This document shows positions 1,495 to 5,462 of a stretch of 45,040 nucleotides of DNA, one piece after another. The notes beneath the pieces were generated by a model, which worked only from the letters and a program-made list of their open reading frames with translations, was not told the DNA's origin and did no database searches. Source of the stretch: Natrinema gari JCM 14663 (GTDB lineage: Archaea > Halobacteriota > Halobacteria > Halobacteriales > Natrialbaceae); assembly GCF_000337175.1 (NCBI RefSeq), contig NZ_AOIJ01000038.1:1-45040 (forward strand). Direction: 5' to 3'. A program made the position numbers and the translations under genes. Every line of letters starts with the position of its first letter. Within the stretch, counting starts at the first letter, position 1.

Positions 1495-2256
1495 TCAGCC
1501 GGCGATGAGTGCGGCCAGCTTGCCGCTGAATGCGGACCCGGTGGCGGTCTGCCCGTTATTGTTGGACGCGTCGACCGACTGCTCCAGTGTCTGATTGAGC
1601 ATCTGGTTACCAACGGAACCTTCGATGGAGGTACCATCAGTAGTACCGTCGTCGTTGGAATTGCCGTTGTTGGACATGCTCTCAGCGGACGTGTCACCCG
1701 GGAAGTCACATTCGGTTGTGCCAGCTTTGACTACAACCTCCGAGATTGGCTCTTCAGATGTCCAACGGACGAGGTTTGGTTCGTTGGGTTCTTTGAACTC
1801 GACATCGGTAATCGTGACTCCCATAGCGTCGCCACCTTCTGGTTCGAACGAGGTCCCAGTCCATTCGAATTTCACGAGGAGGTTACCATCCGTATCGTAG
1901 AACTGGATGTTGCTAATCGCCGGACCGTCAGGATACTCACAGTTTGTGACCTCTCCTTGGAACAGCGCCCCGTTGCCATTATCGCCATTGTCGCCATCAT
2001 CGCCGTTTATATCGCCGAAGTCAATGTCGACCCCGGTCGCGTTCTGATCGGCGAACTGGAGCGCGTTCTGCTCGATCTGGTTCGCCTGCGAGACGTCTTG
2101 CCCCTGCTCGATGTTCACGCCTGCGATTCCCAGATCACCGGTCGGTTTGTCGTCGTGGTGATCCTCACCACCTGCAGCTGCCGTCCCTGCAAAGCCCATG
2201 ACCGCCAGGCTTCCAATTAACGCGAGCGTCAGTAGTACTGTGGATGTTCGTCTCAT
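1495..2256 (-). CDS. Secreted Q/N-motif protein with a beta-rich domain (253 aa)
   Basis: The first 28 residues form a Sec-type signal peptide ending in AGTAAAG. It is almost the same as the signal of the 129-aa protein at 2818-3207, which suggests common origin. Residues 49-72 read IEQGQDVSQANQIEQNALQF and then ADQN, a short version of the Q/N ladder of the 523-aa neighbour, followed by TGVDIDFGDI, close to the tail of the 129-aa protein. Residues about 100-190 look like a beta-sandwich with two cysteines (NCEY and ECDF) that could form a disulfide. The last part is Asn/Ser/Gly-rich and ends in a hydrophobic KLAALIAG. Base composition is less GC-rich than that of nearby genes, hinting at transfer. 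I infer a minor or accessory subunit of an extracellular assembly; function is unproven. Confidence 0.75.
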   Translation of the reverse strand: MRRTSTVLLTLALIGSLAVMGFAGTAAAGGEDHHDDKPTGDLGIAGVNIEQGQDVSQANQIEQNALQFADQNATGVDIDFGDINGDDGDNGDNGNGALFQGEVTNCEYPDGPAISNIQFYDTDGNLLVKFEWTGTSFEPEGGDAMGVTITDVEFKEPNEPNLVRWTSEEPISEVVVKAGTTECDFPGDTSAESMSNNGNSNDDGTTDGTSIEGSVGNQMLNQTLEQSVDASNNNGQTATGSAFSGKLAALIAG

Positions 2257-2817
2257 AGTTTGGTTTCTGTATTCGTCCAGGCGAGCGCACCGTGTACACG
2301 CGGGCTCGTCGATCGGACACGGATCGGTTCGATCACTTCACCGATTCCTCTGCTCTGTTACCGCGAATGCCCGTCTCACGATGCGTCACCTGTTCGATAG
2401 CGACCGCAGTGTTCCATATGAAGGCTGAATACCGTTCAGAACCATACTTCTGCCCTACATCGTCCTGCTCGAGCGTTCTCCGAAACTACTGCCAGTAGCT
2501 GCTTTTTAGTAGCCAATATGGATTGTCAACGCATCATCACCGATTCGGTGAGTCGGATACAGGCCGACGAGTGACACAGACGTGTGTACGCACCTCGCCC
2601 GTCGATATGCTGCCGAGTTGCAGATCCTTGCTGCAGACAGGGAATACGATAGTCAGCCATTGCGTGAACCGCTCTGAGAGATGGAGTAGATGTCCGCTCG
2701 TGGAGGATCGTGTCTTCGCACTGTACGACTACGCACAACGCACGAATACAACGAGTAGCCTATCTACTCGCCGCTAAAAATAAAAACGGACGCCGTTGCT
2801 GACTGAGGCTGCTCTCT
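2257..2817. other. Intergenic stretch between two secreted-protein genes
   Basis: No convincing gene is present. Short frames on both strands have no haloarchaeal protein character. A small stem CTACT (2486-2490) / AGTAG (2494-2498) followed by TTTTT (2503-2507) resembles a terminator on the plus strand, although no plus-strand gene precedes it. Upstream control for the minus-strand gene starting at 2256 must lie in the left part, but I see no strong TATA box. Confidence 0.4.
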
Positions 2818-3207
2818 TTACAGGGGCAGTTCGTCGAAGTCGATGTCGACGTCGGTGTCGATCCCGGTCGAATTGGCGTCGTTGTCGTTGGCCTGGTTCG
2901 CGGAGATCGTGTACACGTCGTCAACGACGTTGACGTTGTTCTGGTCGACGTCTTGGCTCTGGTACGCAACGGTCTTCGCGTAGCTCGTGTCCGAACTGGC
3001 GTACGATGATGCGAGCTGGGTCTGTGAGTTGCTGTTACTCTGATCGTTGTTTATCGTAGTCGTCGCGCTCGAGTCCTGATCGATATCCACGGAGGAATTA
3101 ACGTCTGGGTTGATCTGCGGCTGTGCCGCTGCTGTTCCGGCGAGCCCCATGAAAGCGAGGCCGCCGATCAATGCTACCGTCAGTGTGAGCGTGAGTGCGC
3201 GTTTCAT
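2818..3207 (-). CDS. Secreted Gln/Asn-rich small protein (129 aa)
   Basis: The chosen start is the ATG at 3205-3207, because translation from it begins directly with a 28-residue signal peptide (MKRALTLTLTVALIGG onward, ending GTAAAQ). The mature part is about 100 residues, rich in Asn, Gln, Ser, Asp and Thr. It contains both halves of the ladder repeat seen in the 523-aa neighbour: ATTTINNDQSNSNSQTQ and YQSQDVDQNNVN. The tail TGIDTDVDIDFDEL matches the TGVDIDF motif of the 253-aa neighbour. There are no cysteines and no membrane anchor. I infer a small extracellular subunit, perhaps a nucleator or cap, by analogy with curli-like systems; that role is not shown by sequence alone. Confidence 0.75.
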   Translation of the reverse strand: MKRALTLTLTVALIGGLAFMGLAGTAAAQPQINPDVNSSVDIDQDSSATTTINNDQSNSNSQTQLASSYASSDTSYAKTVAYQSQDVDQNNVNVVDDVYTISANQANDNDANSTGIDTDVDIDFDELPL

Positions 3208-3890
3208 AGTGGATTCGGTCACCGTGTCAGTCGGGCACCACGCGTCTGACCACACCGGAGCGCATCCATAGCGGAGGTGCCTCGTCGTCTGGCGGCGCTG
3301 TTGCTGGTCGCAACTAAGCTGCCTCCTCCCGGTAGCGTTCCGATATGGCGCGTTGCCCGGTCGCTACTCATCACAGGGACCCATTTGAACCCGGCAAACG
3401 GTTTCGGGCCGAATAGCGGCATTAGAGCACCTGATTGGTGAGGCTAGCGTTCGGGCGGATCGTTCAGCGGCCGGCAGTTGAGTACTTGCCCTCGTTTCGA
3501 GGACGCTACCGCGTGCGTCTTCGATCCGTCGCGTTCGACCGCCTCAGTCTCTCCAGTGCCCCTGTGAAACGATCGGCACGCGACCACGATGCGCTAATAT
3601 TCGACTTCGGCGGCCGAAACGGTCCGCGAATCGTGAGCGTTCGCGTCGGTTTGCTTCGGCGCTGCCACGACGGCCTGTGACTGCGTGAAGACGATTTTGG
3701 TTGCGGAACCATAGTCCGGTATCCGCTCGAGAAGCCACCGATTTCCGCGGATAAGCAGCGGCCTATGGATTCGAAGGCCGCTTCATACTGCTGCCAACCT
3801 GTCGATAACAAAGGGACTCATGCGGATAGGATGATTTGCATCGCGGAGACTCAGAAACGAAAGACCATCACGATACAGATCACACGATCA
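3208..3890. other. Divergent intergenic region of the Q/N-protein locus
   Basis: About 680 bp separate the divergent starts at 3207 and 3891. Overlapping short frames here are Arg-rich and not credible. Two dyads stand out: TTCGGC-G-GCCGAA at 3606-3618, and an 8-bp repeat AGCGGCCT (3757-3764) / AGGCCGCT (3775-3782) about 110 bp before the plus-strand gene. They may mark operators or a structured leader. No clear TATA box is seen at leaderless distance for either gene. Confidence 0.4.
3757..3782. repeat. 8-bp inverted repeat upstream of the curlin-like gene
   Basis: AGCGGCCT and its exact complement AGGCCGCT are separated by 10 nt. The element lies about 110 bp upstream of the start at 3891 and could be an operator or a leader hairpin. 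No other copy was noticed. Confidence 0.35.
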
Positions 3891-5462
3891 ATGACAACCA
3901 CTACAACGAGACGCTCACGAGCTACGACACTCTTTCTGTCCTGTATGATCGCCCTGTCGATGGTCGCGGCCGGCGTGCCGGCTGCGACCGCAGGCGGAGA
4001 GGGTGAGTTGAATGCCGGAACGGTACACGCACTCGAGCAGGGTGAGGAACTCTATCTCGTGTTCGGAGCCGATTTGAGCGAGCAGTCGCTCGAAGAGTAC
4101 GTCAACGAGCACGCGGACGACTCGAGTAATGCCGACACCGAGATCGTTCAATACCAGGACGTCGATCAGGTCAACATCAACGAGCAAGGCTCTGCGGTGT
4201 CGATCGCGATCGACGGCGGCGAGGCAACCGCCATCCAGGAAGCGAACCAGGAGAACGACAACGTCCAGAGCGGCGAGGCGGTCACCGAGAGCGGTGGCGT
4301 CGAGACCGCGACAACCCAGTTCGAGAACGTCGGCGACGTCAACATCATTATCGGCAACGGCGGCGACCAACAGTTCGATGGCTGGGGGATCAAGGACAAG
4401 AAGGGCGACGACAAGACGATCACACAGGAAGCGGTTGCCGGCGTCGCCCAGTCCCAGACGGTCGGGCAGGTCAACTACAACAACCAGAGTACCGCCTTCG
4501 CCTTCGCGATGAACGACAGCGACGCGACCGCCCTCCAGCAGTCCTACCAGCGAAACGAGAACCTCCAGGAGGGGATGGCCAACGCCTCGAACGTCTACCT
4601 CGGTGACGGCAAGGTCGGGCACAAGAAGGACAAGTCGGGCGACCACGGCGCTGGCTCGAGTACAGGACAGGACGCTGACGCGCTGCTCGAGCAGTCTCAG
4701 GACGTCGTTCAGGAGAACGTCAATGAACAGGGCGGTGCAGTCGCCATCGCTATCGGCGAGAACAGTACCGCCACGGCGATCCAGTTCACCGACCAGAGCA
4801 ACCTTAACGAACAGATCGGGAGCGCCGACGCCTCGAACCTGATGGCGACGGCCACCGGAATGAACGTCGCGACCGCGGGCGATGTCAGCGGTGACATCCT
4901 CTCGACCGAGACCGAAGTCAGCGAACCGGACAAGGAAGACAAGAAAGACGGGATCGACGGCGAACAGGTCGCGACTGCTGGCGTCGCCCAGCAACAGGGG
5001 GTCGAACAGCGAAACATCAACCTGCAAAACACCGCACTGGCCATCGCACAGAACGGTAGCGAATCCACCGCGATTCAGCTCGCCTACCAGCAAAACTACA
5101 ACGCACAGGTCGGCTACGCCGACGCCATCAACGTCTACGCGAGCCCCGGCTACGTCACCGACGACGTTACCCGGACCTCGAGTACGACCGTGACGGTCGA
5201 CGGCAACGCGGGCGAGGACAACCCCGGCACGTCGTACGACTACGCCGGTTCCGCGAACCAGACGAACGACGCCGAGCAGACCGCGAGCGCGGCGATCGAG
5301 CAGAGCCAACTCATCACACAGGAGAACATCAACGAGCAACACACCGCCGTCGCGGTCGCCGAAGACGGCGGCAGTGCCGGGAGCTCACAGATCAGCCTTC
5401 AGGAAAACGAGAACGTCCAGCTCACGTCCGTCGCCTCGACGAACGTCTGGGCCGGCGCGTAA
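3891..5462 (+). CDS. Secreted curlin-like Q/N-ladder repeat protein (523 aa)
   Basis: The start is set at the ATG at 3891, because the upstream in-frame codons from 3765 do not look like a signal and this ATG begins a 35-residue signal peptide ending VPAATAGG. The mature protein holds five copies of an about 40-residue unit at residues 87-126, 187-226, 268-307, 367-406 and 471-510. The consensus is QxQxVxQxNxNxQxxAxAxA, then a short turn, then ATAIQxxxQxNxNxQ. Regularly spaced Gln and Asn with alternating small residues is the hallmark of curlin-type beta-solenoid amyloid repeats. Spacers of 40-65 residues are acidic or Lys/Asp-rich (for example around 165-175 and 240-252). There are no cysteines in the mature part, no C-terminal anchor and no PGF-type sorting signal. 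The protein is probably secreted and may self-assemble. Two smaller relatives lie just upstream on the other strand. Self-assembly is inference; the repeats are directly visible. Confidence 0.8.
   Translation: MTTTTTRRSRATTLFLSCMIALSMVAAGVPAATAGGEGELNAGTVHALEQGEELYLVFGADLSEQSLEEYVNEHADDSSNADTEIVQYQDVDQVNINEQGSAVSIAIDGGEATAIQEANQENDNVQSGEAVTESGGVETATTQFENVGDVNIIIGNGGDQQFDGWGIKDKKGDDKTITQEAVAGVAQSQTVGQVNYNNQSTAFAFAMNDSDATALQQSYQRNENLQEGMANASNVYLGDGKVGHKKDKSGDHGAGSSTGQDADALLEQSQDVVQENVNEQGGAVAIAIGENSTATAIQFTDQSNLNEQIGSADASNLMATATGMNVATAGDVSGDILSTETEVSEPDKEDKKDGIDGEQVATAGVAQQQGVEQRNINLQNTALAIAQNGSESTAIQLAYQQNYNAQVGYADAINVYASPGYVTDDVTRTSSTTVTVDGNAGEDNPGTSYDYAGSANQTNDAEQTASAAIEQSQLITQENINEQHTAVAVAEDGGSAGSSQISLQENENVQLTSVASTNVWAGA

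Follow-up and report, generated by a model that had tools for sequence, protein, structure and literature searches.

Genes and Features of the Locus

The window analysed was a stretch of 45,040 nucleotides of Natrinema gari JCM 14663 (contig 38, read from position 1), and the contig belongs to a haloarchaeal genome of 4.02 Mb. Three genes for secreted proteins lie divergently near the start of the window. The large protein (523 aa; ORF at 3891–5462, plus strand) carries its own signal sequence and five two-strand units rich in Q, N and A (4149–4289, 4449–4592, 4692–4838, 4989–5132, and 5301–5444, plus strand). Each of these ladder units spans about 46 residues, with strands of the form QxQxxxQxNxNxQ and QxxxQxNxNxQ, and long linkers separate the units. 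Two small companions are encoded on the minus strand, a 129-aa protein at 2818–3207 and a 253-aa protein at 1495–2256. Both were confirmed as real ORFs, as an earlier reading of the letters alone (the original prediction) had proposed. The 253-aa protein consists of an N-terminal ladder piece (about residues 45–79; 2020–2124, minus strand), a central domain with two cysteines (1687–1968, minus strand), and a C-terminal ladder piece (about residues 214–247; 1516–1617, minus strand). The central domain is called the cassette below, as it is exchanged between strains.

The signal peptides of the two companions are identical at 19 of 28 positions. The likeness that had been claimed for all three proteins thus held between the companions, but the 523-aa protein has a different signal sequence. 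All three proteins have signal sequences, and neither a membrane anchor nor a lipobox was visible by eye. In the stretch from the contig start to the 253-aa gene (1–1494), neither a secreted nor a ladder gene was recognised.

The three proteins were compared with Pfam and NCBIfam models, and nothing scored above the cut-off. A search of solved structures by sequence gave nothing meaningful for the large protein, and its AlphaFold model, built with eight close relatives in the input, was unusable (pLDDT 29). The genes around the locus were grouped by rough ORF clustering, which also groups shadow ORFs in this G+C-rich DNA. No export or assembly gene was recognised near the locus in this way; the neighbouring genes also seem to recur beside ladder loci in many genomes.

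Ladder Pieces in the Large and Small Proteins

The predicted ladder pieces were present in both companions, as QGQDVSQAN in the 253-aa protein and QSQDVDQNN in the 129-aa protein. With a profile of the large-protein units, the 129-aa protein scored 6.9 bits and the 253-aa protein 2.3 bits; 13 and 73 of 2000 shuffled sequences, respectively, scored as well. In single companion sequences the ladder signal is therefore weak, barely above chance. Across relatives it was much clearer. With the unit profile, 74% of 100 small proteins scored above the 99th percentile of their own shuffles. A large-protein profile run through 391 Halobacteria genomes also matched small genes in other genomes, with E-values down to 2.9e-9. 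Conversely, a profile made from 12 small proteins only matched unit 1 of the large protein here (4089–4316; E = 1.7e-5) and in several other genomes; within the 253-aa gene it matched 2068–2256, which covers the N-terminal ladder piece and the signal peptide. Judged from these profiles, the ladder shared by large and small proteins is real and not a product of chance.

The genome of N. gari was also searched with the 129-aa protein. Besides one match at chance level, it returned the 253-aa gene (E = 3.3e-4) and, from the end of contig 37, a paralogue (E = 0.10). Since essentially only locus genes were returned, the likeness is specific to the locus. The motif TG(V/I)..DIDF, which had been put forward as a shared mark, does occur in both companions, but few relatives retain it (15 of 101; 9 of 28 in Natrinema loci). 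By sequence, it is a local likeness and is unsuitable for defining the ladder family.

Conservation and Co-Occurrence of the Divergent Genes

Of 391 Halobacteria genomes, 87 carried a relative of the large gene, and 79 of these belong to Natrialbaceae. The regions around 89 large genes were fetched and compared together with the N. gari locus, giving 90 loci. Almost all proteins found by profile near the large gene (102 of 103) were small secreted ladder or domain proteins encoded upstream and divergently. At least one divergent small gene lay upstream of the large gene in 63 of the 90 loci, at a median distance of 516 bp, and such genes often came as two or three tandem copies. In five loci (L080, L081, L085, L086, and L098), each of two to three tandem small genes has its own hairpin leader, which suggests that gene and leader were duplicated together.

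There were 27 loci without a divergent small gene. Fourteen of these form a separate large-protein clade (L123–L136), mostly with a Tat-type signal (KRRGYLKG); some genomes have both kinds of large protein. Outside this clade, small divergent genes were present in 63 of 76 loci. Four genomes (G212, G223, G378, and G386) have no adjoining small gene and carry small genes 27–31 kb from the large gene. Genome-wide within Natrialbaceae, 77 genomes had both kinds of gene, two had the large gene only (G020 and G247), and one had small genes only (G370). These locus and genome counts are phylogenetically non-independent, though they span many genera. The original prediction had named independent carriage of the genes in related genomes as evidence against it; in this survey independent carriage was not the rule (63 of 90 loci; 77, 2, and 1 genomes). 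The survey supported the view that the locus is conserved, with a large ladder protein and one or more small ones encoded divergently. The pairing of large and small genes, carried by most of the family, is what is conserved in the proposed three-gene locus, whereas its members vary and no set of three is fixed.

Variation in Locus Membership

The 253-aa type was found in N. gari, N. pallidum, N. altunense, N. ejinorense, N. thermotolerans, some further Natrinema, and one genome of another genus (G246). No gene of this type was found next to the large gene in N. versiforme, N. mahii, or N. zhouii. The place of the 129-aa gene is occupied in N. altunense, N. ejinorense, and N. thermotolerans by a type of 150–164 aa. 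This type resembles the 253-aa protein without its central domain: an N-terminal ladder piece, a short linker, and a C-terminal ladder piece.

A further member, of 205 aa, was located at the end of contig 37 (14404–14502 and below; L007, and L017:5886–6503). It has a signal peptide of the companion kind and the two-cysteine domain, and it has no ladder. Its orthologues in N. pallidum and N. altunense lie on the same contig as the 253-aa gene and beyond it. From this synteny, contig 37 very probably adjoins contig 38, which would give the N. gari locus four members.

Structure and Relatives of the Central Domain

The beta-rich domain with two cysteines that had been predicted in the 253-aa protein was borne out by AlphaFold, which placed it at about residues 98–190 with a pLDDT of about 90. 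In fold searches all top matches were immunoglobulin (Ig) variable-type sandwiches, close to background (best Foldseek E = 2.9e-3; best structural Z = 8.0, at 2.9 Å over 89 residues), and no family in the PDB fold list rose above the Ig-type background. The model gives a suggestion, and no more, that the domain is Ig-like. The cassette had no match above cut-off among Pfam and NCBIfam models, and a search of solved structures by its sequence gave nothing meaningful.

With a profile of the N. gari type, the cassette proved homologous to the C-terminal domain of FG-GAP surface proteins (L169, E = 9.8e-24; L170, E = 9e-23); the FG-GAP repeats of L169 were recognised at E = 1.1e-18. In other haloarchaeal families, relatives of the cassette occupy a place close to the C-terminus in FG-GAP surface proteins that have a hydrophobic tail. 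Two ladder-free relatives (L121, 4199–5266; L122, 12503–13570) hold two copies of the domain and have lost both cysteines together. This joint loss fits a disulphide in the two-cysteine domain.

Exchange and Circular Permutation of the Cassette

N. pallidum is the closest relative of N. gari in the large-protein tree (95% identity). Between these two species the N- and C-terminal flanks of the 253-aa protein are 88% and 85% identical; the middle is only 32% identical, in an alignment padded with gaps. The N. gari domain is instead 76–80% identical to that of G246, whose flanks match only at 48–61%. A second pair, N. thermotolerans (L051) and G091 (L055), showed flanks 91% and domains 29% identical. 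Since two pairs combine conserved flanks with divergent domains, at least two replacements of the domain block have taken place in a frame protein that was itself kept. The G+C content was 52.8% in the N. gari cassette and 58.8% and 61.0% in the two flanks. The domain is bordered by acidic Gly/Asp/Asn linkers, where crossover probably took place. The original prediction had considered an adhesion or capping part; the exchange between strains fits a variable part on display better than a cap.

The strand order of the domain was also compared. A GxVxxC strand, with the cysteine at its end, comes first in the N. gari and G246 domains and last in the others. Moving this strand to the end raised the profile score from 25.1 to 31.5 bits, a score reached by 2 of 1000 strand-shuffled versions. 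The N. gari and G246 domains therefore seem to be circularly permuted relative to their sister proteins. Further apparent strand orders were seen in L182 and L195 (AISFVAFC first, LLVKFEW last), so circular permutation may be frequent across the domain family.

Promoter-like Blocks and Leaders

A promoter-like block, GAAACCGTTTGCCGGGTTCAA, lies upstream of the 129-aa gene (3385–3405, minus strand) and has its sole exact match in the genome there. The small genes have such a block in common, with the consensus GAAACcGTTnnncGGGTTcAA, in which TTCAA stands about 28 nt before GGGCAACGCG (n = 66 leaders). From GGGCAACGCG to the start codon the leaders measure roughly 80–160 nt. The transcription starts of the locus genes are inferred from this kind of spacing only; they are predicted near 3358 (minus strand) for the 129-aa gene and near 3804 (plus strand) for the large gene.

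The leader of the 129-aa gene would form a hairpin at 3232–3359 (minus strand), with the basal stem CGGGCA-A-CGCG (3359–3349) / CGCG-UGG-UGCCCG (3244–3232). This stem is common to relatives in many genera. Among 18 related leaders, the stem GGGCA-A-CGCGUCAC / GUGAUGCG-UGCC closes the hairpin, and the interior varies widely yet stays paired. A single alignment-wide fold for all leaders was rejected, as the interior is too variable; the stem appears in the closer set. In a broader set of 20 leaders, changes on both sides were seen in 2 of 12 pairs and the covariation term was near zero, so leader covariation on its own is weak structural evidence. The folding z averaged −2.0 for 102 leaders and −0.34 for 120 control upstream regions, a contrast that favours structure but is inflated by kinship. 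From its predicted start the 129-aa leader folded at −66.4 kcal/mol, and the best structure contained the conserved basal stem; when truncated to 140 nt, and so lacking the 5' arm, it did not stand out (z = −1.5). The leader region of the 253-aa gene (2257–2400, minus strand) gave a stable hairpin of about −55 kcal/mol, with z = −3.1 over 140 nt. The region 2200–3960 was compared with the models of Rfam 15, and there was no match up to E = 1.

The large gene is preceded by a conserved non-coding leader of a different kind (3804–3890, plus strand), which starts with GATAACAAAG and is unique in the genome. ATAACAA stands 86 nt before the ATG in 43 of 68 cases, a distance nearly fixed across genera. 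A longer N-terminus in place of this conserved stretch was ruled out by an in-frame TAG in relatives. The GATAACAAAG motif was found in none of 102 small-gene leaders, so the two sides of the locus have no obvious common site. In Haloferax volcanii, 72% of protein-coding transcripts are leaderless (PMC4983044). The leaders described here would be long 5' regions, conserved and structured, in haloarchaea whose transcripts seem to be leaderless for the most part.

Proposed Function and Alternative Explanations

The locus may make an extracellular protein polymer that works like the major and minor subunits of curli, a proposal that we favour over the others and hold at slightly less than an even chance. 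The large protein would be the main building block, and its five two-strand units, with alternate Q, N, and A, would suit stacking into a beta ladder. The small companions carry one or two ladder pieces and would enter this polymer as minor subunits, initiating, terminating, or tuning it. In the 253-aa protein the two ladder pieces would sit in the polymer and the central domain would be held out as a variable surface part. Export would probably follow the general pathway, judging from signal sequences read by eye and from the fact that no anchor was seen.

The polymer proposal draws on the homology between large and small proteins in both directions, on the divergent neighbourhood together with the genome-wide co-occurrence, and on the presence of one many-unit large protein with several few-unit small proteins, as in major and minor subunits. 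It is also consistent with signal sequences without a visible anchor or lipobox in all three proteins, and with the cassette domain type in FG-GAP surface proteins. Conserved flanks around a swapped domain are expected if the flanks fit a fixed partner and the domain is free to vary. Other points count against the polymer: the large-protein units are spaced by long linkers, unlike those of CsgA; the large-protein model was unusable; no export or assembly gene was recognised nearby by the rough clustering; and large and small genes lie apart in some genomes. A fuller account would be a Natrialbaceae fibre unrelated to curli by sequence, with a strain-specific swapped beta domain on the fibres of some lineages, exchanged probably by linker recombination and once circularly permuted, and with dedicated control that includes the 5' hairpin leaders. 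Taken as a whole, this account is rather doubtful.

Homology, co-occurrence, and cassette exchange would also fit if the proteins coated the cell, attached to the S-layer or glycocalyx, without any polymer. The ladder units would then pair large and small proteins in a defined complex, and the variable domain would serve as a surface for recognition or as a decoy, under selection by viruses or rivals. The few, widely spaced units of the large protein suit such a coat; no anchor was seen, however, and the regular alternation of Q, N, and A in five units is what stacking needs. We regard the coat as unlikely. The likeness of large and small proteins might also be convergence of low-complexity, Q/N/D-rich secreted proteins that share their place by descent. 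The single-sequence scores (2.3 and 6.9 bits) are indeed weak, and the neighbouring genes seem to recur too, so that linkage alone could be inherited. Such convergence is nonetheless quite improbable, because each kind of profile finds proteins of the other kind (E = 2.9e-9 and 1.7e-5) and because co-occurrence holds where small genes sit 27–31 kb away.

The small and 253-aa proteins might instead be secreted antagonists of a halocin-like kind, with the variable domain as the active part and the large protein as a partner or carrier. Competition proteins commonly have a variable domain set in a conserved frame and occur in tandem copies. Haloferax mediterranei has a protease-activated secreted precursor (PMC12893001). 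That precursor acts through alpha helices, whereas the cassette domain is all beta; moreover, no immunity-like partner was noted beside the genes, and most small proteins lack the variable domain. An antagonistic role is thus very unlikely. The probability left after the polymer and these three alternatives goes to none of these readings.

The locus is a concrete candidate for the structural protein of an amyloid-like matrix in Natrialbaceae; it occurs family-wide, is compact, and could be deleted. The swapped domain offers a natural experiment on the pressures that make haloarchaeal surfaces vary, with attachment and the recognition of kin or viruses as candidates.

Comparison with Known Systems

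As in curli, with CsgA as the major subunit and CsgB as the nucleator, a secreted Q/N-ladder protein is encoded here together with a homologous minor partner, and the units are of the strand-turn-strand type with Q and N at alternate positions. The two systems differ in their units, the spacing of these, and gene arrangement. The ladder units here are about 46 residues long and separated by long linkers, whereas CsgA repeats are tightly spaced; the genes here are divergent single genes, whereas curli genes form csgBAC/csgDEFG. Curli by homology was ruled out. The curlin repeat (PF07012) had no match in the whole genome, with a control matched in E. coli, and none was found in the Pfam scan of the three proteins. 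The CsgG exporter (PF03783) likewise had no match in the whole genome, with controls matched in four bacteria. N. gari is an archaeon, without an outer membrane to cross.

The haloarchaeal FG-GAP surface proteins (among them L169, L170, and L171) share a C-terminal domain of the cassette type (E about 1e-22). There, a beta-propeller and a Thr/Pro-rich stalk come before the domain and a hydrophobic tail comes after it; in the 253-aa protein, unlike these, the domain lies between two ladder pieces and has the GxVxxC strand first. The halocin-like precursors (PMC12893001) were weighed as a further comparison and are not alike.

Amyloid-like proteins are also known from other archaea. The sheath proteins of Methanospirillum and Methanothrix are, like the proposed polymer, extracellular, structural, and amyloid-like, but these archaea are methanogens and their sheaths are ring-stacked (PMC10593813, PMC6242892). 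The sequence comparison covered Pfam, in which the ladder proteins had no match. The biofilm matrix of H. volcanii binds Congo red and thioflavin T, and the protein behind this binding has not been identified (PMC4180959). The evidence there is from dyes only and the ladder family is nearly confined to Natrialbaceae, so a link to that matrix is hypothetical. A curli survey mentions a single archaeal protein, unnamed, that has curli-like repeats (PMC3521004); it could be a ladder-family member or something else. No description of the family was found in the open literature on curli, amyloid, and Q-rich secreted haloarchaeal proteins. The conserved divergent genes and the swapped domain suggest that the ladder proteins may form a fibre-like, extracellular system so far undescribed.
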